From the NCBI RefSeq assembly GCF_019355395.1, contig NZ_CP048829.1, positions 1,825,501 to 1,889,500 on the forward strand: a stretch of 64,000 nucleotides of DNA. The letters are read 5' to 3'. This document shows, in pieces, positions 29,147 to 41,220 of this stretch. Every line of letters begins with the position of its first letter. Position 1 is the stretch's first letter. Below the pieces are notes generated by a model. That model was not told the origin of the DNA and did no database searches. It saw only the letters and a list, made by a program, of their open reading frames with translations. Both the position numbers and the translations under genes were made by a program. This stretch comes from Chordicoccus furentiruminis. GTDB taxonomy: Bacteria > Bacillota > Clostridia > Lachnospirales > Lachnospiraceae.

Positions 29147-30097
29147 ATGAAAAAAGCAAAGTCAGAGGGATTCAAAACATTCCTGAACGGGTATGGAGTC
29201 GTCACCATTGTTTTAATCGCAGTGTTTATTGTGATGAGTTTCCTCAGCAAAAACTTCATGACCGGAGTCAATATGTACAACCTGATGCGGTCAACAGCAG
29301 TATATGGCATTATAGCCCTTGCCATGACCTTTGTCATTGTTACGGGCGGCATTGATTTGTCTGTCGGCACGCATGTCGGGATGGCGGGTATGGTTGTTGC
29401 CTTGCTAACAGTTAATCAGGTTTGCGGAATTTGGCCGGCTGTTTTTATTGCACTGGCACTTTGCGCAGTGATCGGACTGATTAATGGGATCATGATTTAC
29501 GACGGCGGACTTCCCCCATTCATTGCCACACTGGGAATGATGATGATCACGCGGGCGATTATCCTTCTGATCTCCAATGCAAAAAACATCACCGGGCTTC
29601 CGCAATCCTTTTTGGCTGTATCAAAGATGAAAGTCGGCCCGATTCCCTTTATGGCCGTAGTGTGGTTCATAGCGATTGCAATCTCTTTCTTTATCTTTAA
29701 ATATACCGTGTTTGGAAGAAATGTTTTTTCGGTCGGATCTAATATTGAAGCCGCACGCCTTTCAGGTATCCCGGTCAGAAGAACTACATATGGAGTTTAC
29801 GTTCTTTCGGGAATATTTTGCGGAGTCGGCGGTATTCTTCTGACATCCCGCGTGGCCAGTGGTATTCCTACATTGGGCACTGGCTATGAGATGAACGCCA
29901 TTGCCGCGGCGGTGGTCGGCGGAGCATCAATGAATGGCGGCGAAGGTTATATCGGAGGAACGGTGGTTGGTTCTATCCTTATTGCGACGATCGCGAATGC
30001 CGGCACGTTGCTGGGGCTGAATTCTAATATTACGGATATCATTGTAGGAGTGCTGATTGTTGCCTCTGTTCTCATTGACAAGTTCAGAAAGCATTAA
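29147..30097 (+). CDS. Ribose-type sugar ABC transporter permease
   Basis: The 316-residue membrane protein has 8-10 hydrophobic segments and RbsC-family motifs: MTFVIVTGGIDLSVGT near residue 63 and IAAAVVGGASMNGGEGYIGGT near 260, the ATPase-contacting loop. It forms the homodimeric channel for the binding protein and ATPase encoded just upstream. GAGGCGG precedes the start; the gap to the ATPase gene is 18 bp. Confidence 0.93.
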   Translation: MKKAKSEGFKTFLNGYGVVTIVLIAVFIVMSFLSKNFMTGVNMYNLMRSTAVYGIIALAMTFVIVTGGIDLSVGTHVGMAGMVVALLTVNQVCGIWPAVFIALALCAVIGLINGIMIYDGGLPPFIATLGMMMITRAIILLISNAKNITGLPQSFLAVSKMKVGPIPFMAVVWFIAIAISFFIFKYTVFGRNVFSVGSNIEAARLSGIPVRRTTYGVYVLSGIFCGVGGILLTSRVASGIPTLGTGYEMNAIAAAVVGGASMNGGEGYIGGTVVGSILIATIANAGTLLGLNSNITDIIVGVLIVASVLIDKFRKH

Positions 30098-30117
30098 CAG
30101 AAAAAGGGGAGTGCGCC

Positions 30118-30567
30118 ATGAGATTTGATCTGCATGAAGGAATACTGAACTGTCAGCTCAAAAGAGTATTAGCTGAAGCTGGGCATATGGACTGGCTGAT
30201 GCTCTCAGATGCTGCGATGCCGGTTCCGATTGACAAGGAAAGAGTGGATTTGGCTATAGTCAAAGGATTGCCCAGACAACTGTCTGTTTTAAAAGCGATC
30301 ATACAGGAAAAGCCGATTGAGAAGATATATATGGCTTCCGAAGTGAAGGAAGTCAGTCCCAAATATCTTTCGAAGGTCAGAGAACTTCTGAAGGAAAGTG
30401 ATACCGAGCTTGAATTTGTTCCCCATGAGACGCTGAAGAAAATGTCCAGAGATTATAACACACGAGCCTGTATCCGTACGGGCGAATGCACAAGTTACTC
30501 GACCATGATTCTTGATATCGGAGTTTCCTATGGGGGCGATGATGACACGGATTTTCATGCGGTTTGA
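30118..30567 (+). CDS. RbsD/FucU-family sugar mutarotase (first copy)
   Basis: The 149-residue protein matches the RbsD/FucU fold. The N-terminal H-x-x-L/I motif is degenerate (LHEGILNCQLKRVLAEAGHMDWLMLSDAAMPVP), and RVDLAIVKGLPRQLSVLKAIIQEKPIEKIYMASE and RTGECTSYSTMILDIGV follow. RbsD interconverts beta-pyranose and beta-furanose forms so ribokinase gets its substrate. It lies between the permease and ribokinase genes. A second, shorter RbsD follows ribokinase, so one may have taken another sugar. Confidence 0.85.
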   Translation: MRFDLHEGILNCQLKRVLAEAGHMDWLMLSDAAMPVPIDKERVDLAIVKGLPRQLSVLKAIIQEKPIEKIYMASEVKEVSPKYLSKVRELLKESDTELEFVPHETLKKMSRDYNTRACIRTGECTSYSTMILDIGVSYGGDDDTDFHAV

Positions 30568-30645
30568 AAGCTGGTCTGTCCATCGTTTGAGATAAATCTG
30601 TGTACTCATAATCAGATCGATGAAGCATGAGAGGAGGGAATTTCT

Positions 30646-31587
30646 TTGAAAAAAAAGATATTGATGTTTGGAAGCTTTGTCGTAGACCTGACCGGCAGAG
30701 GCCCTCATCTCCCTGTCCCCGGAGAGACAGTTAAAAGCGGTTATTTTAAGATGGGGCCGGGTGGAAAGGGATACAATCAGGGGATCGCGGCTTTCCAATC
30801 AGGCGGTGAAGTAACAATCGTAACAAAGCTTGGAAATGATCTGTTTGCCAATATCGCATTGGATTTCATGAAGAATCTCGGCATGGATACGTCCAGAATA
30901 CTGAGAACAGATGAATATTCAACAGGAACCGCATTAATAGAAGTAGACGAGAAAACCGGTCAGAACGCAATCATGGTTATTCCATCAGCCTGTGATCATA
31001 TTACGGATGATGAAGTGGACAGTCTGAAGGATTTGATTAGTTCGTCCGATATTGTGCTGACCCAGCTGGAAACAAATTACAGTGCACTGTCACGTCTTAT
31101 TGATCTTGCTTATTCAGCGGGCAAGCAGATTGTTCTAAATACAGCACCGGTACAACCGGTCAGTGACAAGCTTCTTGCGAAATGCAGTATCGTTACGCCG
31201 AACGAAGTAGAGGCCGCTGCTTTGAGCGGTATACCCGTGACAGATGAAAAAAGCGCATCAGCAGCAGCCGGTTATTTTCTGAAGAAAGGTGTGAAGGCTG
31301 TTATTATTACGATGGGAGAGAAAGGAGCTTTTGTAACGGACGGAAAAACAGAAAAGATGATTCCGGCTTATCCGGTGCAAGCTCTTGATACGACTGGCGC
31401 CGGGGATGCTTATAATGGCGGTCTTGTTACGGCGCTTTCAGAAGGAAAAGACATTTTTGAAGCAGCACGGTTCGCGAGCGCGGTAGGAGCTTTGGCTGTA
31501 CAGAAGATCGGTACCGCACCGGCAATGCCGCGAAGGGATGAAATCGACGCGTTTATTGCGTCGAGAGGAAAGGAGAACGAGGAATGA
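30646..31587 (+). CDS. rbsK: Ribokinase-like PfkB-family sugar kinase
   Basis: The 313-residue PfkB kinase contains the N-terminal GGKGYNQGIAA motif (residues ~43-53) and the C-terminal anion-hole/catalytic motif DTTGAGDAYNGGLVTAL (Asp base in GAGD). It would phosphorylate the imported pentose or ketose with ATP. The start is TTG at 30646, seven bases after GAGGAGGG; no in-frame ATG fits. Its stop overlaps the start of the second rbsD-like gene (ATGA). Confidence 0.9.
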   Translation: MKKKILMFGSFVVDLTGRGPHLPVPGETVKSGYFKMGPGGKGYNQGIAAFQSGGEVTIVTKLGNDLFANIALDFMKNLGMDTSRILRTDEYSTGTALIEVDEKTGQNAIMVIPSACDHITDDEVDSLKDLISSSDIVLTQLETNYSALSRLIDLAYSAGKQIVLNTAPVQPVSDKLLAKCSIVTPNEVEAAALSGIPVTDEKSASAAAGYFLKKGVKAVIITMGEKGAFVTDGKTEKMIPAYPVQALDTTGAGDAYNGGLVTALSEGKDIFEAARFASAVGALAVQKIGTAPAMPRRDEIDAFIASRGKENEE

Positions 31588-31988
31588 AGACAAGCGGAAT
31601 ACTTCACCCTCAGCTGGTGCGGATTCTGGCCGAGATCCGTCATAAGGATACAATCGTTATAGGAGATGCCGGACTGCCGGTTCCGGATGGAGTAGAGCGT
31701 GTGGATCTTGACTTTATACCAGGACAGCTACCTTATCTTGATGTTTTGAAGGCCGTTTTGCAGGAACAGAATAATAACTTTGAAGCGGCAGTGTTCGCAG
31801 ATGAAGCTAAAACGGTATCTCCGGATTTCCATCGAAAAGCGCTGGCTCTGCTTCCAGATGGAATTGATATCAGCTATGTTCCTCATGTTCAACTCAAGGA
31901 AATGTCAGGAGATGCAAAAGCGATTATTCTGACAGGAGAATTCACCCCCTATACTAATGTTATTCTGAGATCCGGATGCGCGTATTGA
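31584..31988 (+). CDS. rbsD: RbsD-like D-ribose pyranase (second copy)
   Basis: The 134-residue protein is a closer match to true RbsD than the first copy: KTSGILHPQLVRILAEIRHKDTIVIGDAGLPVP with the catalytic His region and GDAGLPVP motif, RVDLDFIPGQLPYLDVLKAVL, HVQLKEMSGDAKAIILTGEFTPYTNVIL. It catalyses pyranose-furanose exchange. It overlaps rbsK by 4 bp. Two different RbsD homologues flanking one kinase is unusual. Confidence 0.88.
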   Translation: MKTSGILHPQLVRILAEIRHKDTIVIGDAGLPVPDGVERVDLDFIPGQLPYLDVLKAVLQEQNNNFEAAVFADEAKTVSPDFHRKALALLPDGIDISYVPHVQLKEMSGDAKAIILTGEFTPYTNVILRSGCAY

Positions 31989-32075
31989 TTACAGAGGAAT
32001 AAAAAAACAGCAGATAATCGATCTTGGATAACTGAACTGAAAAGCCAATCATACGAAGGAGGTGACATTTGAACT

Positions 32076-33608
32076 ATGAGTGATCAGTATCTGATTGCGT
32101 ATGATATTGGAACGTCAGGAACCAAGGCATCATTATACAGTGCGGATGGACGTATGCTCCATCGGTGTACGGTTGGATACGAAATCAGCTACAGGTCAGG
32201 AGGAAGAGTAGAGCAGTATCCTGACGATTGGTGGAATGCAGTTGTGACTGCGACCAGGAAACTGACTGAAAACGCTGATGGGCGAGCAGTAGCAGCTGTT
32301 TCCTTTTCCGGACAGATGATGGGCTGCCTTCTGATAGATCGGGATGGGAAGCCACTTGGCAATTCCATTATATGGGCAGATACCAGAGCGCAGGATGAAG
32401 CAGAAATTCTTTCTAAGCGCGTTGGCGAAGAAAGAGGCTATCAAATCCTTGGACATCGGATCAGTTGCAGTTACAGCATTGAAAAACTGATGTGGCTCAA
32501 AAAAAATGAGCCGGAGCGCTATGAACAAGGCTTCAAAATGATTCAAGCCAAGGATTACATCATTTTGAAGATGACAGGCAGAGTGGTTAGTGATTATTCG
32601 GATGGATCCGGTACGAACGGGATGGACCTTCTCAATAATTGCTGGTCACGGGAAGTTCTAGATGCCGCAGGACTTGATATGGATAAGATGCCGGAGCTGG
32701 TGCAGTCTGCCGAGGTTGTCGGGCATCTGACCAAAGAGTCTGCATCGCTGCTTCATCTATCAGAGGATGTTAAAGTAGTGGCTGGAGGCGGAGATGGACC
32801 ATGTGCGACACTCGGCTCTGGATGCGTCAGAAATGGTCAGTATTATCTGACATTTGGCACTTCTGCATGGGTTTCTGGAACGTCTGCCAAACCAAGGGCG
32901 GATGAAAAACATATATTGTTTACTTTTTCACATGTTATTCCCGGGATGTATTCACCGACTGGGACGATGCAGGCGGCGGGCAGCTCCTATGCATACATGA
33001 AAAAAACTTTTTGCCAGGAGGAAATCCAACGCGCAGAGCAGGAAAAGCGAAATGTCTATGATATACTCGACGAAATGATTGAGAAGGTTCCTGCTGGATC
33101 AGATCATCTCCTTTATCTGCCCTATTTGAATGGAGAAAGAGCTCCTCGCTGGAATCCGAACGCTTCGGGTGCTTTTCTTGGGATGACAATGGAACATACC
33201 AAAGCACATTATCTCCGAGCAGCGCTTGAAGGCGTAGCGATGAATCTGGACTTGATACTGAAAGCCCATAGAGAGCATGAAGAGATAAATCGGCTGATCC
33301 TGACCGGCGGAGGCGCAAAAGGCGATATTGTAGCCAGAATACTTGCGGACGTCACTGGATGTGAGATGGTACGGCCAGATCATGTGGAAGATGCAACATC
33401 TATGGCGGCGGCTGTCCTGGCAGGCTTCGGTGCGGGAATTTACCGGAATTTTGACGCGATTAATTTGTATCTTAAATTCGGACAGCCGATCAGGCCGGAC
33501 GAACAGAACCATAAGATTTATCAGAAACTGGAAAAAGTATTCGACGATGTCTATTACGCTCTGGAGCCATATTTTAAGGAGATACAGGGTAATAAGGCGA
33601 CAAGATAA
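32076..33608 (+). CDS. FGGY-family carbohydrate kinase (xylulokinase-like)
   Basis: The 510-residue kinase shows the FGGY nucleotide-fold opening [21 protein letters not shown], the substrate motif [26 protein letters not shown], and the C-terminal ATP motif [22 protein letters not shown]. The family phosphorylates ketoses or polyols such as xylulose, ribulose or glycerol. Together with the ribokinase it gives the cluster two kinases, probably for an aldose/furanose and a ketose. AAGGAGGTGA lies nine bases before the ATG. Confidence 0.9.
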
Positions 33609-33621
33609 GGAGTATAGTAAG

Positions 33622-34287
33622 ATGGAGATTACGAGGAAAAATGTAGCGGGCATCATTGACCACACATTGCTGAAGCCGGAAGCCAGCGAGACGCAGATTG
33701 CGAAGCTGTGCAGCGAGGCGATGGAGTACCATTTCGCTTCGGTATGTGTCAATCCGGGATATGTGAAGCAGTGCGCGGAGACGCTGAAGGACAGCTCTGT
33801 CAATGTCTGCACGGTGATCGGATTCCCTCTCGGCGCGACGACGACGGAATCGAAAGCGTTCGAGGCGAAAAACGCAGTTGAGAACGGCGCGGATGAAGTG
33901 GACATGGTCGTCAATGTCGGAAAGATCAAGTCCGGAGACTGGGATTTCGTGAAGAAAGACATCGAAGCGGTTGTGCAGGCGGCGGGCGGTCATCTCGTCA
34001 AGGTGATCATCGAAACCTGTCTGCTGACGGATGATGAAAAGGTGAAGGTCTGCCTTACCGCGAAGGAGGCCGGAGCGGATTTTGTGAAGACGTCGACCGG
34101 TTTTTCGACCGGCGGCGCGAAGCCGGAAGATGTCGCGCTGATGCGCAGGACGGTCGGACCGGATATGGGTGTAAAAGCTTCCGGTGGGATTCATACTGCC
34201 GAGGAAGCGATTGCCTGCATCAAAGCGGGCGCGAACCGGCTTGGCTGCAGCGCGGGCGTGCAGATCATAAGCGGAATACCGGAGTGA
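33622..34287 (+). CDS. deoC: Deoxyribose-phosphate aldolase (second copy)
   Basis: The 221-residue protein is a standard Deo[66 protein letters not shown], Schiff-base lysine in [16 protein letters not shown], second lysine in [13 protein letters not shown]. It is higher in GC than the kinase gene before it. The open frame runs back to 33343 inside the kinase gene, but ATG 33622 with AAGGAG nine bases upstream is the true start. It is the second DeoC within 12 kb; the remnant of hxlB begins at its stop codon. Confidence 0.94.
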
Positions 34288-34495
34288 ACTTCCGTCCCTA
34301 ACCGATGTAGCCGAGAGAATGACCGAACTTCTGTCGAATGTATCAGAAACGCAGGTCGAAGATTTTTGTCATACGCTGCGGCTCGCAGGCCGAATTTTTA
34401 CTGGAGGGGCCGGTCGCAGCGGTCTGGTCTCGAAATCCTTTGCAATGCGGCTGATTTATGAAGCGGGATTTACAGATCGGCTTAGTCAGGACTGA
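34286..34495 (+). pseudogene. hxlB: 6-phospho-3-hexuloisomerase (HxlB/PHI) N-terminal remnant
   Basis: In the frame starting near 34286 the sequence reads LTDVAERMTELLSNVS, then ETQVEDFCHTLRLAGRIFT, then GGAGRSGLVSKSFAMRLIY and EAGF, ending at TGA 34493-34495. This is the N-terminal third of a SIS-domain hexuloisomerase: the string RIF-x-x-GAGRSGL-x-x-K-S-FAMRL is the family signature. About 110-120 residues of the fold (including the catalytic end) are missing, and no start codon with a ribosome site is seen. It sits between deoC and the second epimerase, so the operon has lost a ribulose-monophosphate-type isomerase. This short frame is easy to miss because it lacks a proper start. Confidence 0.85.
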
Positions 34496-34571
34496 TCGCG
34501 AGAGCGATGAGTCGGATTCTGAATGAGGAAGATTGACAGTCTGCGCGAGAAATAAAACGGAGGCGGGTACG

Positions 34572-35447
34572 ATGAAGCTGAAGTATGGAATATATTATGC
34601 TTATTGGGAGAAGGAATGGGACGCGGATTACCGGTATTATGTCAAGAAGGTTGCGCGTCTTGGCTTCGATGCGCTTGAGATCGGATGCAGCGCCTTGCCT
34701 GATTATACCGATGCTGCTGTCCGAGAACTTCGCCAATGTGCGAAAGATGAAGGAATCGAGCTGACAGGGGGGTATGGACCCAGACCGATCCATAATGTTG
34801 GATCCAGCGATGAGAAAATTCGGGAAGGCGCGTTTGAGTGGTATAAACGCTGTTTTGATAAAATGGCACAACTGGACATGCATGTACTCGGTGGTGCACT
34901 GTATTATTACTGGCCTGTGGATTTTCATACAGTGGGTCCTAAGGAAGAAGAGTGGAAACGGGCAGTAGAAGGAATGCAAAGACTGGCGCCTCTGGCTGAG
35001 GCCTGCGGTATTACGCTCGGCATGGAAGTGATCAACAGGTACGAAAGTTATCTGATCAATACATGCGATGAGTGTGTCCAGTTTGTCAGAGAAGTCGGTG
35101 CTCCGAACGTGAAAGTGATGCTGGATACATATCATATGAATATCGAGGAGGATGATCTCGGTGGGGCGATTCGTCACGCCGGTCATCTGCTGGGACATTT
35201 CCATGTTGGAGAATGCAATAGAAAAGTGCCTGGAATGGGACGAATTCCCTGGAGAGAGATAGGAACTGCTCTTAGAGACATCAATTATAATGGGTATGTT
35301 GTCATGGAACCGTTTGTTCGTATGGGAGGAACGGTCGGCAGGAATATCGGTGTATGGAGAGACATCAGTCAGGGCGCTGGTGAGGAAAATCTGGACCGCG
35401 ACGCACGTGAATCGTGCAGGTTCCTGCATTATGTATTTGAAGACTGA
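34572..35447 (+). CDS. D-psicose/D-tagatose 3-epimerase-like protein (second copy)
   Basis: The 291-residue TIM-barrel epimerase begins MKLKYGIYYAYWEKEW, typical of psicose 3-epimerases. Metal ligands are Glu in LGMEVINRYESYLINT, Asp in VKVMLDTYHMNIEE, His in LGHFHVGECNRKVPG and Glu in YVVMEPFVRMGG. The GECNRKVPGMG string is closer to characterised D-psicose (allulose) 3-epimerases than the copy at 23036. It would interconvert free ketohexoses at C3. The ORF opens at 34533, but ATG 34572 follows GGAGGCGGG. It is the last gene of the operon, before a terminator. Confidence 0.88.
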   Translation: MKLKYGIYYAYWEKEWDADYRYYVKKVARLGFDALEIGCSALPDYTDAAVRELRQCAKDEGIELTGGYGPRPIHNVGSSDEKIREGAFEWYKRCFDKMAQLDMHVLGGALYYYWPVDFHTVGPKEEEWKRAVEGMQRLAPLAEACGITLGMEVINRYESYLINTCDECVQFVREVGAPNVKVMLDTYHMNIEEDDLGGAIRHAGHLLGHFHVGECNRKVPGMGRIPWREIGTALRDINYNGYVVMEPFVRMGGTVGRNIGVWRDISQGAGEENLDRDARESCRFLHYVFED

Positions 35448-35467
35448 AACCATCATCCGCTTCAGCG

Positions 35468-35511
35468 GGCAGGCATTCTGTGAGGACGGATCGCAGGATG
35501 CCTGTCTTTTT
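35468..35511 (+). terminator. Rho-independent terminator ending the sugar operon
   Basis: GGCAGGCAT (35468-35476) pairs with ATGCCTGTC (35498-35506) with one wobble, plus an inner CTG/CAG pairing, followed by TTTTTC. Confidence 0.7.
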
Positions 35512-35690: not shown

Positions 35691-37220
35691 ATGAAAAATG
35701 TTCTTGAAATGCTGGAGCAGACGGCGGAGCGGTATCCGGAGCGAACCGCGGTCTCGGATCAGCAGACGTCGCTCACGTGGGCGGAGCTGCGGCGCCGGGC
35801 CGGAGGCATCGGCGCCGTGCTGGCGGACGAGCTGGAGGGAAACCAGCCGGTTGTCGTGTTCGCGGCGAAGCGGGTGGCCACACTGGCGATCCAGCTTGGT
35901 ATCGTCTACGCGGGCGGATTCTATGTCCCGGTCAGCCGCGACCAGCCGGCCGAGCGGATCGGGCGGATCCTGCGGAGACTGGGCCGGCCGCTGGTGATCG
36001 CGGCTGACAGTCTGAGATCGCTGGTGGAGGAGACCGGCTTTGGCGGAACGGTTCTTTCAGCGGAGGCGCTTTATGCGCAAGAGGCGGGCAGTCCGGACGA
36101 ACGCCTTCGGGCAGTCCGGAGCCGCGCCTCGGAGAAGGATCTTCTCTACGGGATTTTCACCTCCGGGTCCTCCGGCGAACCGAAGTGCGTCTCGGTCAGC
36201 CATCGGGCTGTGCTCGATTTCATCGCGCATTTCACCCGGCTCTTCGGGATCAGCGCGGCGGACCGGATCGGCAATCAGGCTCCGTTTGACTTCGATGTTT
36301 CAGTGAAGGACATCTATTCCGCGATGGCGACCGGTGCGGAGCTGGTGCTGATCGACCGGAAGCTGTTCTCTCTGCCCGCGAAGCTGATCGACTACCTGAA
36401 TGAGCGGAAAGTCACGGTTCTCACCTGGGCTGTGTCCGCACTCACGACGGTTTCCACGCTGAAGGGCCTGGACTATGATGTGCCGAAGTCCGTGCGCATC
36501 ATTCTGTTCAGCGGGGAAGCGATGCCGCTCAAGCAGCTGAAAGTATGGCGAGGGGCGATGCCGGGGACGGAATTCGTCAATCTTTACGGCCCTTCCGAGA
36601 TCACCTGTAACTGCACCTTCTACCGGATCCCGGCGGACGCGCCGGAGGATCTCGATTGCCTTCCGATCGGAAAGCCCTTCCCGGGGCGGACGGTCCGGCT
36701 GCTGGACGAAGCGGGGTGTGAGGTGACGGAGCCGGGGAAGCCGGGTGAGATCTGCGTCTCCGGCGAGTCGCTGGCGGAGGGCTACTATCATGATCCGGAG
36801 CGGACCGCGAAGAGCTTTGTTCTCTTTGAGAACGCGGAGGGCCGGCAGGAGCGGATGTACCGGACTGGCGACCTCGCGCATTTTGATCCGTCGGGCAATC
36901 TTGTTTTCGAGGGACGGAAGGACTTCCAGATCAAGCTGATGGGCCACCGCATCGAACTCGAGGAGATCGAGAAGGCGATGACCGACACGGACGGAGTGGC
37001 CGAGGCCTGCTGCATTTTTCTTCCGGAAACGAGAAAGATCGTCGCCTTCTTCACCGGTACGGAGGACAGCCGTCAGGTCCGGATGGATCTCGTGACGCGG
37101 CTGCCCCGATATATGATTCCGGGAAAATTCATCCGGCTGGACCGTTTTCCTCTGAACAAGAACGGCAAGAAGGACCGGAATGAGCTCCGGCGTCTCGCGA
37201 TAGGGGGAAGAAAGGCATGA
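35691..37220 (+). CDS. Amino-acid adenylation enzyme (DltA-like)
   Basis: The 509-residue AMP-forming ligase has the full adenylation-domain motif set: FTSGSSGEPKCVSVSH near 155, NLYGPSEITC near 300, EGYYHDPERTAKSF, MYRTGDLAHFD near 386, and the C-terminal lysine in LNKNGKKDRNEL. Domain order and length fit DltA, which activates D-alanine and loads it on a carrier protein. The neighbours (carrier protein, MBOAT, SGNH protein) support a dlt-like envelope-modifying role, but the amino acid here is not evident. The frame opens at 35631; ATG 35691 after GAGGTG gives the family N-terminus. It overlaps the PLP gene by ATGA. Confidence 0.88.
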   Translation: MKNVLEMLEQTAERYPERTAVSDQQTSLTWAELRRRAGGIGAVLADELEGNQPVVVFAAKRVATLAIQLGIVYAGGFYVPVSRDQPAERIGRILRRLGRPLVIAADSLRSLVEETGFGGTVLSAEALYAQEAGSPDERLRAVRSRASEKDLLYGIFTSGSSGEPKCVSVSHRAVLDFIAHFTRLFGISAADRIGNQAPFDFDVSVKDIYSAMATGAELVLIDRKLFSLPAKLIDYLNERKVTVLTWAVSALTTVSTLKGLDYDVPKSVRIILFSGEAMPLKQLKVWRGAMPGTEFVNLYGPSEITCNCTFYRIPADAPEDLDCLPIGKPFPGRTVRLLDEAGCEVTEPGKPGEICVSGESLAEGYYHDPERTAKSFVLFENAEGRQERMYRTGDLAHFDPSGNLVFEGRKDFQIKLMGHRIELEEIEKAMTDTDGVAEACCIFLPETRKIVAFFTGTEDSRQVRMDLVTRLPRYMIPGKFIRLDRFPLNKNGKKDRNELRRLAIGGRKA

Positions 37221-38413
37221 CTGACTCGGAGCTGAGGGAGGCGGCCGCCCGGACGGGCACGCCGGCTTATATTTTCGATCTGGACGAGGCCCGGACCCGG
37301 GCCGGAGCCGTGCGGGCGATGCTGGGCGGCGGGATCGGCCTCTGCTTCGCGATGAAGAGCAATCCGTTCCTCACGGGTGCGCTGGCTTCCTGCGTGGACC
37401 GGATCGAGTGCTGCTCGGTCGGTGAGTTCCGGATCGCTGCGGCGCAGTCGGTTCCGCCGGAAAAGATTCTCTTCTCCGGCGTGCTGAAGACGGAGGAGGA
37501 CATCGCGGAGGTCATGGACCGCTGCGGAGCCCGGTGCCTTTATACAGCGGAGTCGCCGGCCCAGTTCTGCATGCTGGAGGAGGCGGCCGCCCGGCGCGGG
37601 ATACGGGTGCGGGTGCTGCTCCGGCTGACGGGCGGAAATCAGTTCGGGATGGCCTTCGGAGATCTCATGCCGCTGTATGAGGCGGCGGAGACATCGGACG
37701 CCGTTTCGATCGCCGGCATCCATTTCTTCACCGGCACGCAGAAGCATTTCGCCCCGATCCGGAAGGAGCTGAAGACGCTCGGGGAACGGATGGACGAGAT
37801 CCGTTCCCGCGGATGGCCGGTTCCGGAGCTGGAATACGGACCGGGCTTTCCCGTCCGCTACTTTGAGCAGGAGCGGGAGCCGCTGCGGGAGGATGATGTC
37901 CGGGAGACTGTCCGGCTCGCCGGGGCGCTCGGCGCCGGCCGGGTGACGTTTGAGATGGGCCGTTTTCTCGCGGCTTCCTGTGGCGTGTATCTCACGAAGA
38001 TTCTGGACCTGAAGCGGGGAGAAGAGCCGGACGCGCCGGCCATCTGCATCACGGACGGCGGGATCCACCAGATTCAGTACGACGGCCAGTTCCGCGGCAT
38101 GTTCACTCCGGAGATCCGGGTGCTGCGGGAGAGGCCGGATGCGGCGGAAGCGAAAACCGGCCTCTATACGCTCTGCGGCTCACTCTGCACGGCCAACGAC
38201 GTGCTCTGCGGAAAGTACGCCGCGTCCGGTCTGCGGCCGGGCGATCTGCTTGCGTTCGGTCGGACAGGAGCGTACAGTGCCTTCGAGGGGATGGCGCTTT
38301 TTCTGAGCCATGATCTGCCGGCCGTCGCGCTGCGAAGCGCGGAGGAAGGGCTGCGGGTCGTCCGGGACAGGCAGCCGACATGGATTCTGAATACGTACAC
38401 ACAGAAAGGATAA
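37217..38413 (+). CDS. Fold-type III PLP enzyme (LysA/ODC-like decarboxylase or racemase) in a dlt-like cluster
   Basis: The 398-residue protein opens GTPAYIFDLDEARTRAGAVR and has the PLP lysine in LCFAMKSNPFL near residue 45, the barrel string GIHFFTGTQKHF, the phosphate-binding ELEYGPGFPVRYF, and the C-terminal dimer-interface CGSLCTANDVL and GAYSAFEGMALFLS. Architecture is that of diaminopimelate/ornithine decarboxylases. CGSLCTANDVL replaces the usual G-x-x-C-E-S-x-D, with Cys kept but Glu-Ser changed to Thr-Ala. The standard dltABCD operon has no such gene. It may produce the amino acid or amine that the adenylating enzyme loads; this is inference. Overlaps and tight spacing show co-translation with its neighbours. 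Confidence 0.85.
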   Translation: MTDSELREAAARTGTPAYIFDLDEARTRAGAVRAMLGGGIGLCFAMKSNPFLTGALASCVDRIECCSVGEFRIAAAQSVPPEKILFSGVLKTEEDIAEVMDRCGARCLYTAESPAQFCMLEEAAARRGIRVRVLLRLTGGNQFGMAFGDLMPLYEAAETSDAVSIAGIHFFTGTQKHFAPIRKELKTLGERMDEIRSRGWPVPELEYGPGFPVRYFEQEREPLREDDVRETVRLAGALGAGRVTFEMGRFLAASCGVYLTKILDLKRGEEPDAPAICITDGGIHQIQYDGQFRGMFTPEIRVLRERPDAAEAKTGLYTLCGSLCTANDVLCGKYAASGLRPGDLLAFGRTGAYSAFEGMALFLSHDLPAVALRSAEEGLRVVRDRQPTWILNTYTQKG

Positions 38414-38416
38414 AAA

Positions 38417-38656
38417 ATGAGCGATACGTTAAAGAAGGAAATCACGGATATGCTGATGGAGATCGATGATTCCATCGATTATGAAGAGGAGACGCATCTG
38501 GTGGACGATCATCTTCTGGATTCCTTCGGCATCATCACGCTGATCGCGGATCTGGAGGACCGGTACGGGGTTTCCGTCAACGCCGCCGAGCTTGTCCCGG
38601 AAAACCTGAATTCCGTGGACGCGATCTGTGAGATGGTGCGGAAACTGAAGGCATAA
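38417..38656 (+). CDS. Acyl/aminoacyl carrier protein (DltC-like)
   Basis: The 79-residue acidic helical protein has the 4'-phosphopantetheine site Ser in HLLDSFGIITLI (residue ~36) and a C-terminal helix typical of carrier proteins. DltC has the same length and the LDS motif. It should carry the activated amino acid or amine as a thioester from the adenylation enzyme to the MBOAT system. It starts 3 bp after the PLP gene's stop. Confidence 0.9.
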   Translation: MSDTLKKEITDMLMEIDDSIDYEEETHLVDDHLLDSFGIITLIADLEDRYGVSVNAAELVPENLNSVDAICEMVRKLKA

Positions 38657-38660
38657 TGGT

Positions 38661-40220
38661 ATGACGTATTTTGACGCGCTGTATCTGTTTCTGATGCTGC
38701 CGGTTCTGCTGGCGGTCTATCAGCTTCTTCCGAAGCGCTTCCGCTGGATCAGTCTGCTGGCGGCCAGTCTGCTCTTTTACTGGTCCCTGAGCGGCAGACT
38801 GATCGTCTGGGTGCTGTTGGCCTCTGTGTGGACGTGGCTGTTCGGGCTTTTGATCGCCTGCTCGGCCGCTGAGCGGAAGGCAGGCGGTGCGAAGAAGACG
38901 CTTCCGCTTTCCCCCGACGCGCTCCGTAATATCGCGGTCGCGGGACTTCTCGGTACGCTCGCGGTCCTCAAGTATACGGGCTTCATCGAGATGAACATCG
39001 GACGGCTGATCCGGCTGGCGAATCCCGCCTATCAGATCACCTGGAAGAATTTTGCGCTTCCGATCGGAATCTCTTTCTATACGCTGGATGCGGTCGGCTA
39101 TCTGGTGGATATCAGCTGGGAGAAAATGCAGCCGGAGCGCAGCCCGTTCCGGATGCTTCTCTACCTCAGCTTCTTTCCGAAGGTGATGGAGGGGCCGATC
39201 CTCAGCGGCGGCGCACTCCGGGAGGCTCTGTTCGCCGGAGAATCCGTCAGGAGCGGGAATCTGGCGCACGGCTCGATCCGGATCTGCTGGGGCCTTTTCA
39301 AGGAGCTGGTGATCGCGAACCGGCTTGCGATTCCGGTCAACATGATCTTCGATCACTACACCGATTATCACGGGGCCGTGACGGCGGTGTCCGGGATCCT
39401 TTACGCCCTCCAGCTGTACATGGACTTCTCCGGCACGATGGATGTGGTTATCGGGTCGGCGGAGCTGTTCGGCATCCGGATGCCGGAGAACTTCAGCCAG
39501 CCCTTCTTCGCGAAGAATGCGTCGGAGTTCTGGCGCCGGTGGCATATTTCTCTGGGCGTCTGGTTCCGCACATACATTTTCTATCCGGTTTCGCTCTCGA
39601 AGCCGGTTATGAAGTGGAATCTGTATTCCAGAAAAAAGTACGGCCGGTACGTCATGATGCTCGGCACATCGGCGATGTGTCTCTTCCCGGTCTGGCTCGC
39701 CAATGGACTCTGGCATGGCCCTCAGTGGAACTATATCTTCTACGGAATGTATTACTTTGTCATTCTGATGCTGGAGACCGCGCTGGGACCGGTCCGGAAG
39801 AAAGCGGAGAAGCGTCTGCGCCGCACGAAGCGTATGCATCTGTGGAATGCATTCCTCATCCTGAAGACATGGATCGTCATCTTCACGGGCGAGATGTTCT
39901 TTCGCGCGAACGGCGTCAGAGCGGGCTTCTCGATGTTCGCCAGCATGTTCCGGGGCTTTTCTCTCAGGACGCTGACGGACGGGACGATGCTCCGTATGGG
40001 ACTCAGCGAGACAGGCTTCACGGTCGCGTTCCTCGGGATTCTTGTGGTTCTCATCTACGACATCTGTCAGGAGAAGCATCTGATTCCGGACGGCCGTCTT
40101 GGACGCTGGGAGACGCCGGTCCGGTGGACGCTTTACTACGCGCTGATTTTTGCGGTCTTTATTTTCGGTGCTTACGGCGCCGGCTATCAGAAAGTGGATA
40201 TGATTTATGCGGGATTCTGA
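38661..40220 (+). CDS. MBOAT O-acyltransferase (DltB-like)
   Basis: The 519-residue polytopic protein has about 10-11 membrane segments and MBOAT-family motifs: PKVMEGPILSGG, LYMDFSGTMDVVIG, ASEFWRRWHISLGVWFRTYIFYPVSL (the conserved WRRWHISL), and the catalytic-histidine motif LANGLWHGPQWNYIFYG. DltB/AlgI proteins pass an acyl or alanyl group from a carrier across the membrane to an extracellular polymer. It follows the carrier gene by 4 bp and overlaps the SGNH gene by 14 bp. Confidence 0.93.
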   Translation: MTYFDALYLFLMLPVLLAVYQLLPKRFRWISLLAASLLFYWSLSGRLIVWVLLASVWTWLFGLLIACSAAERKAGGAKKTLPLSPDALRNIAVAGLLGTLAVLKYTGFIEMNIGRLIRLANPAYQITWKNFALPIGISFYTLDAVGYLVDISWEKMQPERSPFRMLLYLSFFPKVMEGPILSGGALREALFAGESVRSGNLAHGSIRICWGLFKELVIANRLAIPVNMIFDHYTDYHGAVTAVSGILYALQLYMDFSGTMDVVIGSAELFGIRMPENFSQPFFAKNASEFWRRWHISLGVWFRTYIFYPVSLSKPVMKWNLYSRKKYGRYVMMLGTSAMCLFPVWLANGLWHGPQWNYIFYGMYYFVILMLETALGPVRKKAEKRLRRTKRMHLWNAFLILKTWIVIFTGEMFFRANGVRAGFSMFASMFRGFSLRTLTDGTMLRMGLSETGFTVAFLGILVVLIYDICQEKHLIPDGRLGRWETPVRWTLYYALIFAVFIFGAYGAGYQKVDMIYAGF

Positions 40221-41220
40221 TCATCGGAGCAGGCGGCTTGCGTCTTTCTGGCGGCCGCTGCTCTTTTTCCTGATTCTTTGCATCCTGATGGAGGGGATGT
40301 CCTTCATCGTGGTGCGCAGCGCGTATCTCACCGGCGGCGATTCAGGCGGCCGGAACGCAGTTTATTTCCAGATTGAGAACGAGAAGCCGCAGACGATTCA
40401 GATCGTCAATGTCGGCGACAGTCTGAGCTACACCGCCTTTTCCCCGATGCAGGTCTGGCGGGATTACGGCCTGACTTCCATTGACTGCGGGCAGCCGGGT
40501 CAGCGGACGGAGGCCGCCTGCTCGGTGCTTCAGGCCGTTTTCAAGAGCCAGAAGCCGGCCGTCGTGCTGATGGAGGCGCACTGTCTGTTTGTCTCCGATC
40601 AGGGCGCGAAGGAGCTGGAGAATCAGTTCGGCGAACTGCTGGGGCGCGTTTTCCCGATCGTCCGCTATCACAGCTTCTGGAACAAGGATACATGGGGCGA
40701 GGGACGCCGCGGCGCTTATCAGGGGTTCCGGATCCGGGCGAGCATCAACCCGTATACCAAAGGGGATTATATGAGCCGCAGGATGAAACGAACGGCGATT
40801 CCGGACGCGAACCGGGAGTCGCTCGCGGAGCTCCGGGAACTCTGCGACGAGAACGGCGCGCAGCTCGTGCTGTACAGCTCACCGTCGCCGCGGAACTACA
40901 ACCGGAAGCGGGTGAAGACCCTTCTGCGGACGGCGAAGGAGCTGGGGGTCCCCTGTGTGGATCTGAACGAGAGACAAAAGGCCGTCGGCATTGACTGGCA
41001 TACGGACAGTCTGGACGGCGGCGATCATCTGAATATTTCCGGCGCCCAGAAGACCACGGCCTATCTGATGCAGTATCTGAAGCGTGATCTCGGAATCCGT
41101 TTCGGGGAGCGCGCCGGAAAAATATCGGTTTCCTGCTGGAACGATCTGGCGTCGGAGTATCAGAAGATTGCGAAGAAAGAACTGAAGCGGATCCGGGAAG
41201 TGAAGACGGCGAAGGCGTAA
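40207..41220 (+). CDS. Membrane-anchored SGNH-type protein (DltD-like)
   Basis: The 337-residue protein has an N-terminal basic stretch and one membrane anchor (PLLFFLILCILMEGMSFIVV), then an extracellular domain. It has the SGNH nucleophile motif NVGDSLSYTAF (Ser near 72) and the C-terminal Asp-x-x-His region DSLDGGDHLNISG. DltD and AlgX/J-like proteins with this plan complete transfer to the polymer outside the cell. The mature region does not look like classical DltD in detail, so the acceptor polymer is unknown. Its stop codon lies in the loop of the terminator hairpin. Confidence 0.82.
   Translation: MRDSDHRSRRLASFWRPLLFFLILCILMEGMSFIVVRSAYLTGGDSGGRNAVYFQIENEKPQTIQIVNVGDSLSYTAFSPMQVWRDYGLTSIDCGQPGQRTEAACSVLQAVFKSQKPAVVLMEAHCLFVSDQGAKELENQFGELLGRVFPIVRYHSFWNKDTWGEGRRGAYQGFRIRASINPYTKGDYMSRRMKRTAIPDANRESLAELRELCDENGAQLVLYSSPSPRNYNRKRVKTLLRTAKELGVPCVDLNERQKAVGIDWHTDSLDGGDHLNISGAQKTTAYLMQYLKRDLGIRFGERAGKISVSCWNDLASEYQKIAKKELKRIREVKTAKA

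Follow-up and report, generated by a model that had tools for sequence, protein, structure and literature searches.

In the window analyzed here, a 64,000-nucleotide stretch of the Chordicoccus furentiruminis genome (contig NZ_CP048829.1, positions 1,825,501 to 1,889,500), five tightly packed genes encode the parts of a Dlt-type surface-aminoacylation system together with a predicted decarboxylase that depends on pyridoxal phosphate (PLP). We propose, with moderate confidence and on sequence evidence, that these genes form a Dlt-like operon with a built-in decarboxylation step performed on the carrier protein. In many gut Clostridia, such a five-gene system probably attaches a small amine-bearing acid, e.g. 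beta-alanine or 4-aminobutyrate (GABA), to a surface polymer. The features of the locus are the following.

35691..37220, + strand: adenylation enzyme (A), resembling DltA and the A domains of nonribosomal peptide synthetases (NRPSs), from Pfam, NCBIfam, PDB search and pocket alignment
37217..38413, + strand: predicted fold-III PLP decarboxylase, BtrK-like, with Lys47, Glu246, Cys324 and the LCTxxD motif (CGSLCTANDVL), from Pfam, PDB search, alignment, model and tree
38417..38656, + strand: stand-alone carrier protein with the phosphopantetheine serine in DSFG, from Pfam and NCBIfam
38661..40220, + strand: MBOAT membrane acyltransferase, DltB-like, with the conserved WHG histidine H352, from Pfam and NCBIfam
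40207..41220, + strand: membrane-anchored SGNH protein in a DltD-like role, with the GDS serine S72 and the DHLN histidine H274, from model, Foldseek and alignment
35467..35507, + strand: terminator-like hairpin of 17 pairs with a T-rich tail, between the five-gene set and the upstream genes, from a consensus match only

The initial annotation had named five coupled genes, and all are present in this arrangement. The junctions along the set are, in order, a 4-base overlap, a 3-base gap, a 4-base gap and a 14-base overlap. Four of the products match Pfam models above the cut-off, namely AMP-binding (PF00501, 220.5 bits), Orn_Arg_deC_N (PF02784, 57.7 bits), PP-binding (PF00550, 26.0 bits) and MBOAT (PF03062, 47.6 bits). 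The idea of a dlt-like loading and export system with its own PLP enzyme, probably for a substrate other than D-Ala made on site, also gains support from the sequences.

In the proposed mechanism, A would adenylate an acidic amino acid, with L-Asp favored and L-Glu next, at its side-chain carboxyl and load it onto the carrier. The PLP enzyme would then strip the free alpha-carboxylate on the carrier, giving a beta-alanyl- or 4-aminobutyryl-carrier. Action of the PLP enzyme on the carrier would require side-chain loading, because an amino acid bound as an alpha-carboxyl thioester cannot, by chemical reasoning, lose that carboxyl. Transfer of the omega-aminoacyl group across the membrane would fall to the MBOAT channel together with the membrane-anchored SGNH protein. 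The product would be an ester on a hydroxyl of a surface polymer, bearing a primary amine, and its likely effect would be a less negative surface charge. The available part of one source describes a general MBOAT-SGNH scheme in which an acyl group is transferred outward (PMC12148441). An excerpt of another states that VinO acts on carrier-bound 3-methylaspartate (3-MeAsp-VinL), after VinN (PMC11284099).

The five-gene arrangement is conserved and not a matter of chance, because at 61 of 81 sites the complete set lies within 6 kb on a single strand. Scanning GTDB genomes by pattern identified at least 584 sequences confirmed as related to the PLP enzyme. The best 80 of these loci were fetched and, together with the window, made up the 81 sites, where we looked for co-directional A, carrier, MBOAT and SGNH genes no more than 6 kb from the PLP gene. 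A was found at 80 sites, the carrier at 77, MBOAT at 76 and SGNH at 67; these counts are lower bounds, several contigs stopping within the cluster. The order A-PLP-carrier-MBOAT-SGNH was seen 43 times, MBOAT-SGNH-A-PLP-carrier 11 times and A-carrier-PLP-MBOAT-SGNH 6 times, the remaining orders being rarer. The best 80 loci belong mainly to Lachnospiraceae, with Ruminococcus, Erysipelotrichaceae, Mogibacterium and others also represented.

A similarity search (E<=1e-10) found the PLP enzyme in 35 of 99 related genomes and 9 of 54 genera, numbers in which a few weak matches may be LysA. A, carrier and MBOAT genes stood beside the PLP gene in 21 of the 30 loci from this search (flanks <=1.5 kb). 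A two-component count drew on 78 of the 81 sites. Among the 69 loci with downstream sequence, 19 had a response regulator gene in one of the first two downstream positions and a histidine kinase gene adjoining it, against a background of 11 such response regulators per 596 genes. This excess suggests envelope regulation.

By alignment, the PLP enzyme has a decarboxylase core without the substrate contacts typical of diaminopimelate decarboxylases (DAPDCs), and it carries a motif shared with BtrK and SbnH, both of which decarboxylate conjugated amino acids. In a PDB search with the single sequence, BtrK came first (4.1e-23) in a near tie with DAPDC (5.8e-23); with a 20-member profile, BtrK reached 197.9 bits, SbnH (6knh) 176.5 and the top DAPDC 170.3. 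The PLP lysine, Glu246, Cys324 and Asp328 are invariant in 48 aligned family members, and Glu357 is present in all 48 and in none of five controls. Position 325 is Thr in 47 members and Ser in one; it is Thr in BtrK and SbnH and Glu in all three DAPDC-type controls, which include the LysA candidate of the window genome. The Arg-Pro that follows the DGG (DAG/DAC-type) strand in the DAPDC-type controls occurs in 0/48 members, and a loose C-E-[STN] pattern is found in one of the 48, away from the aligned column. We take the Glu of C-E and the Arg-Pro to be DAPDC substrate contacts. Since the 80 loci were fetched with patterns containing CGSLCT, the conservation of LCT can be judged without bias only from the 20 sequences retrieved by similarity, all of which have it. 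The pattern-fetched loci, a biased sample, have LCT in 76 of 78, LCS in one and LCE in one, and the single LCE locus (L070) looks like a LysA-like neighbor picked in error. A tree with 24 of the 48 PLP sequences splits the family, BtrK and SbnH from the three DAPDC-type rows with support of 99/97, with long branches flagged by the program. The model of the PLP enzyme has a predicted local distance difference test score (pLDDT) of 90.8, and BtrK 7ru7 is one of the chains sharing the top TM-score, 0.87, among the 50 Foldseek matches listed. The accessible portion of PMC7857480 describes BtrK as decarboxylating carrier-bound Glu (Glu-BtrI to GABA-BtrI) and SbnH as decarboxylating an amino acid in a citryl conjugate.

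These comparisons change two points of the initial annotation. The string CGSLCTANDVL, which it held to be unlike known decarboxylases, matches LCTxxD of BtrK and SbnH, the DAPDCs carrying C-E. A racemase, which it considered as likely as a decarboxylase, is disfavored by the best PDB match, BtrK, and by the position of the only alanine-racemase C-domain of the genome (Ala_racemase_C, PF00842), which lies outside the window at C1:32356-32739. We also rejected LysA, which, as an independently working enzyme, the initial annotation had named as an outcome against its own reading. The window enzyme scores 127.8 bits against LysA TIGR01048 (cut-off 297.9) and lacks C-E and Arg-Pro, and the separate LysA candidate in the genome scores better, at 263.4 bits, which is also below that cut-off. 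The best NCBIfam model for the window enzyme is TIGR03099, with 131.8 bits (cut-off 478.45).

The pocket of the window A reads D-V-K-T-L-S-L-C-N at GrsA positions 235, 236, 239, 278, 299, 301, 322, 330 and 331. These residues provide charge that could face a carboxylate, along with some features expected for an amino group in a shifted position. Of the 81 sites, 75 gave a readable pocket, fragments of <=380 residues and cases where A is not near the PLP call being left out. Lys/Arg239 and Ser301 are found in all 75, Asp235 in 64 and Val236 in 63, and the A10 lysine is kept in all 75 proteins. Two classes can be told apart. Class 1 (64/75) has D235, V236 (I in one), K239, S301 and mostly L322, C330 and N331, and the gene order is A-PLP in all 64. 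Class 2 (11/75) has I235, A236, R239, S301, Q322, A330 and S331, and the order is A-carrier-PLP in all 11.

As controls, B. subtilis DltA reads D-L-M-T-M-C-T-V-A and the DltA-like L125, which scores just under the DltA cut-off, reads D-L-L-I-L-C-L-V-A. The D-Ala pocket of L236, Met/Leu239 and C301 is absent from the window A, which has V, K and S instead. A strictly D-Ala-specific A, the outcome that would have spoken against the initial annotation, is therefore not what the pocket indicates. The part of PMC11253843 available to us reports that a Leu, a Met and a Cys of DltA touch the D-Ala methyl, and we equate this Met with position 239. The same portion gives VinN as having Ser301, Phe236, a beta13-beta14 loop shorter by one residue and K330/R331, and describes a beta-selective (beta-switched) TycA that fixed A236V (PMC11253843). 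Asp235, an enlarged residue at 236 and Ser301, which are VinN-type marks, are present in the window A as D, V and S. Asp loaded via the beta-carboxyl would be the favored, if not proven, substrate, with Glu via the gamma-carboxyl next.

Several observations weigh against an acidic amino acid being loaded by its side chain and decarboxylated on the carrier. The TIGR03099 and LysA models each match 48/48 PLP family members with almost equal best E-values, and the Foldseek E-value order puts nine DAPDC chains first and BtrK 7ru7 tenth. LCTxxD is no specific mark of a carrier-bound substrate, because SbnH has it yet acts on a citrate conjugate. On the side of A, Asp235 is absent from the class-2 enzymes (11/75), and the beta13-beta14 loop of the window A is ungapped against DltA, with C330/N331 and not K330/R331 as in VinN. 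An acid-binding pocket does not settle which carboxyl is loaded, because SlgN1 accommodates the same acid in a flipped orientation, as stated in the accessible part of PMC11253843. The PDB sequence search puts A no nearer to DltA, at 214.8 bits, than to the A domains of NRPSs, with tyrocidine synthase at 245.5 bits. Finally, the clusters L129 (genome G043) and L131 (genome G006) have a class-1 pocket and no PLP gene, so this pocket may be workable without the decarboxylase, which speaks against a strict requirement for it.

These two clusters stand out from a close pairing. A close A (E<=1.3e-132) was found in 27 of the 99 genomes, and 26 of the 27, the window genome included, have a PLP match (E<=1e-40; counted by hand). 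G043 is the exception, and G006, with A at 1.4e-115, was also opened. The PLP gene was not found in the fetched DNA of L129 and L131, nor at E<=1e-10 in their genomes; G043 is 94% complete, with a contig that stops ~0.7 kb past the L129 cluster, and G006 is 90% complete.

The two class-1 clusters are accounted for if the PLP enzyme decarboxylates the free acidic amino acid and A loads finished beta-alanine, GABA or a similar compound, with the rest working as in dlt; the omega-amino acid could then also be drawn from general metabolism. According to the excerpted PMC11253843, Val236 is consistent with a beta-amino acid as substrate. We consider this supply-before-loading order unlikely. Neither beta-alanine nor GABA offers an evident counterpart for the Lys/Arg239 found in every pocket, and BtrK and SbnH, to which the PLP enzyme is most closely related by profile, use conjugated substrates. 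In addition, the vicenistatin adenylation enzyme rejects the decarboxylated product, as described in the available part of PMC11284099.

Less probable still is that the PLP enzyme serves another purpose, such as polyamine or lysine metabolism, and that the amino acid loaded by the operon, acidic or not, stays unmodified. Such a separation would fit the K239 sister clusters that have no PLP gene in the flanks examined, many with a racemase-like neighbor, and the two DVK clusters without PLP. Against it, A and PLP occur together in two gene orders, PLP is present in 26 of 27 genomes that hold a close A, and the DAPDC-type residues are absent.

The resemblance to dlt concerns the parts and not the family assignment. 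The carrier serine, the MBOAT WHG histidine and the SGNH fold are present. The scores against the dlt models are 289.9 bits for A (TIGR01734, cut-off 559.85), 132 for MBOAT (DltB, TIGR04091, cut-off 375) and 23.9 for the carrier (DltC, TIGR01688, cut-off 52.35). Of 119 genomes from the phylum, just one gave a DltA-like protein at E<=1e-150, and this protein is below the DltA cut-off. The SGNH protein had no Pfam or NCBIfam match and no significant PDB sequence match. Its AlphaFold model, built with 41 sequences, has a pLDDT of 89.9 and a predicted template modeling score (pTM) of 0.89. Foldseek places SGNH/GDSL hydrolases first (E 2.7e-06) and DltD 6pfx at rank 30 (E 4.7e-05), and among 41 homologues Ser72 of GDS is invariant and His274 is >=90% conserved. 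DltD (PF04914) had no match in the window genome at E<=0.01, whereas control matches were obtained in B. subtilis and L. lactis. Because four tested defining features failed, we did not file the five-gene set as a member of the dlt operons.

That the set is an ordinary dlt operon whose D-Ala comes from a divergent alanine racemase is very improbable: DltA, DltB and DltC are among the best named models, all under cut-off, and an alanine racemase model weakly matches 7/48 PLP members (best 4.3e-08), but the PLP enzyme best matches decarboxylases, the alanine-racemase C-domain lies elsewhere, the pocket is without DltA's D-Ala contacts and DltD was not found in the genome. We give equally little credit to a small secondary-metabolite or siderophore-type pathway whose MBOAT and SGNH proteins acylate a diffusible product; the best solved relatives of A and PLP stem from natural-product pathways, but the five-gene set holds no further biosynthetic gene, MBOAT and SGNH are frequent partners, and the regulator and kinase excess suggests envelope regulation.

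We also looked for a standard dlt operon elsewhere in the genome and rejected it, as no DltD was found and the sole other A match (E<=1e-10) is of the acyl-ligase type, adjoins an SGNH and an MBOAT gene and has no carrier detected beside it. A second MBOAT/SGNH cluster (L121:2921-7610; C1:2854920-2859609) has an acyl-CoA-ligase-like A gene and no detected carrier protein. A third, SGNH-MBOAT, cluster (L122:2975-7414; C1:1653474-1657913) has a carrier match (E 9.5e-27) ~1.4 kb downstream, and no DltA-like enzyme was found there. As for teichoic acid as a possible acceptor, three genes of the sulfatase family score 29 to 38 bits against LtaS (cut-off 970), and no Glyphos_transf match was found in the genome.

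Sister clusters were sampled with a class-3 (DAKCAGLGM) A enzyme as query against 146 genomes of the order, which gave 25 loci with flanks of <=1.5 kb; the counts describe this sample and are not population figures. PLP lies beside A in three of the four DVK-pocket loci, and in the fourth the carrier lies between A and PLP. No PLP gene was found within the flanks near the other pockets (0/21), four of these loci being clusters already opened. The chance of this 4/4 versus 0/21 split is 1 in 12,650, hand-computed for random assignment and ignoring relatedness and cut contigs. Twelve loci have a DAKCAGLGM/I pocket; seven of them, the seed L138 included, have a racemase-like neighbor and 11 a transglutaminase-like match. 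The racemase-like protein of L138 is above the NCBI cysteate racemase cut-off (203 vs 190 bits). The racemase-like neighbors, present in 7 of the 21 non-DVK loci, with that of the seed reaching the cysteate racemase cut-off, would fit K239 pockets that take an acidic substrate. All five DSKD-pocket loci (L149-L153, L152 being the same place as L134) have a GNAT acetyltransferase gene between A and carrier. The DSKD pocket is similar to the glutamate code DAKDLGVVD. The remaining four loci have other pockets.

A racemase-like gene, matching cysteate/aspartate racemase models, was seen beside the class-3 A at L137:5080-5772 and in L138-L144, and these neighbors suggest a version of the system for a D-acidic amino acid or D-cysteate. 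Transglutaminase-like proteins repeatedly adjoin the PLP-free Dlt-like clusters (L129, L130, L135, L137, L138-L143, L145-L148 and L157), the one at L130 having an Ig-like domain above cut-off.

We tentatively read these clusters as one Dlt-like chassis of A, carrier, MBOAT and SGNH with interchangeable chemistry modules in Clostridia, which might amount to a modular surface code beyond D-alanine. The modules of this tentative scheme would be DVK with the on-carrier decarboxylase, IAR with that decarboxylase in a different gene arrangement, DAKCAGLGM with a neighbor of the racemase-like or transglutaminase-like type, and DSKD with the GNAT enzyme. If so, the group displayed on the cell surface, bearing an amine or an acid, would differ from module to module.

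At the boundaries of the locus, AGAGGTG, which is ribosome-binding-like, precedes the ATG of A at 35691, and a longer frame from 35631 is also open. The gene downstream of the five-gene set is convergent and GGDEF/EAL-like by sequence reading. Upstream, 29147-35447 of the window appears by eye to be a sugar-catabolism gene run (ATP-binding cassette permease, mutarotase-like pair, and ribokinase-, xylulokinase- and aldolase-like genes), with no link to the five-gene cluster seen.

D-alanylation is the textbook Gram-positive means of tuning surface charge and resisting cationic peptides. If on-carrier decarboxylation is correct, a parallel system widespread in gut Clostridia, as the number of PLP relatives suggests, makes its own omega-aminoacyl group, and a substituent sought as D-Ala would be overlooked in these bacteria. 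No dlt-like operon with a decarboxylase was among the literature matches listed, which is weak evidence of absence given narrow multi-term queries and few subscription journals. The parts are known, and the pair of on-carrier decarboxylation and Dlt-type export is a combination not met among those matches.

The closest comparison is dltABCD, which shares the stand-alone adenylation enzyme, the carrier, the DltB-like MBOAT and an SGNH protein in the place of DltD. The window set differs in its extra PLP decarboxylase, in the under-cut-off DltA, DltB and DltC models and missing DltD described above, and in a pocket unlike that of DltA at 236, 239, 301, 330 and 331. The butirosin proteins BtrI and BtrK likewise join a carrier protein to an LCTxxD fold-III PLP decarboxylase, but the loading enzyme here is an A-domain enzyme, whereas that of butirosin, BtrJ, we take to be an ATP-grasp ligase. 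We know of no MBOAT or SGNH protein in the butirosin pathway. In VinN/VinL/VinO and FlvN, as proposed here, an A-domain enzyme loads an acidic amino acid onto a stand-alone carrier and a PLP enzyme decarboxylates it (VinO being compared by description only), and VinN shares Ser301 with the window A. The vicenistatin set, however, feeds a polyketide synthase, and VinN combines K330/R331 with a short loop where the window A has C330/N331 and no gap against DltA. The exosortase-A-associated pair TIGR03098/TIGR03099 consists of the same kinds of AMP-ligase and PLP decarboxylase, but the window genes are far under the cut-offs (592.35 and 478.45, respectively). The AlmE system of lipopolysaccharide glycylation is not known to include a decarboxylase, uses another transferase and takes glycine as its amino acid. 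Like the A enzyme proposed here, AlmE is a stand-alone A enzyme that adds an amino acid to an envelope glycan, as described in the available part of PMC11253843.

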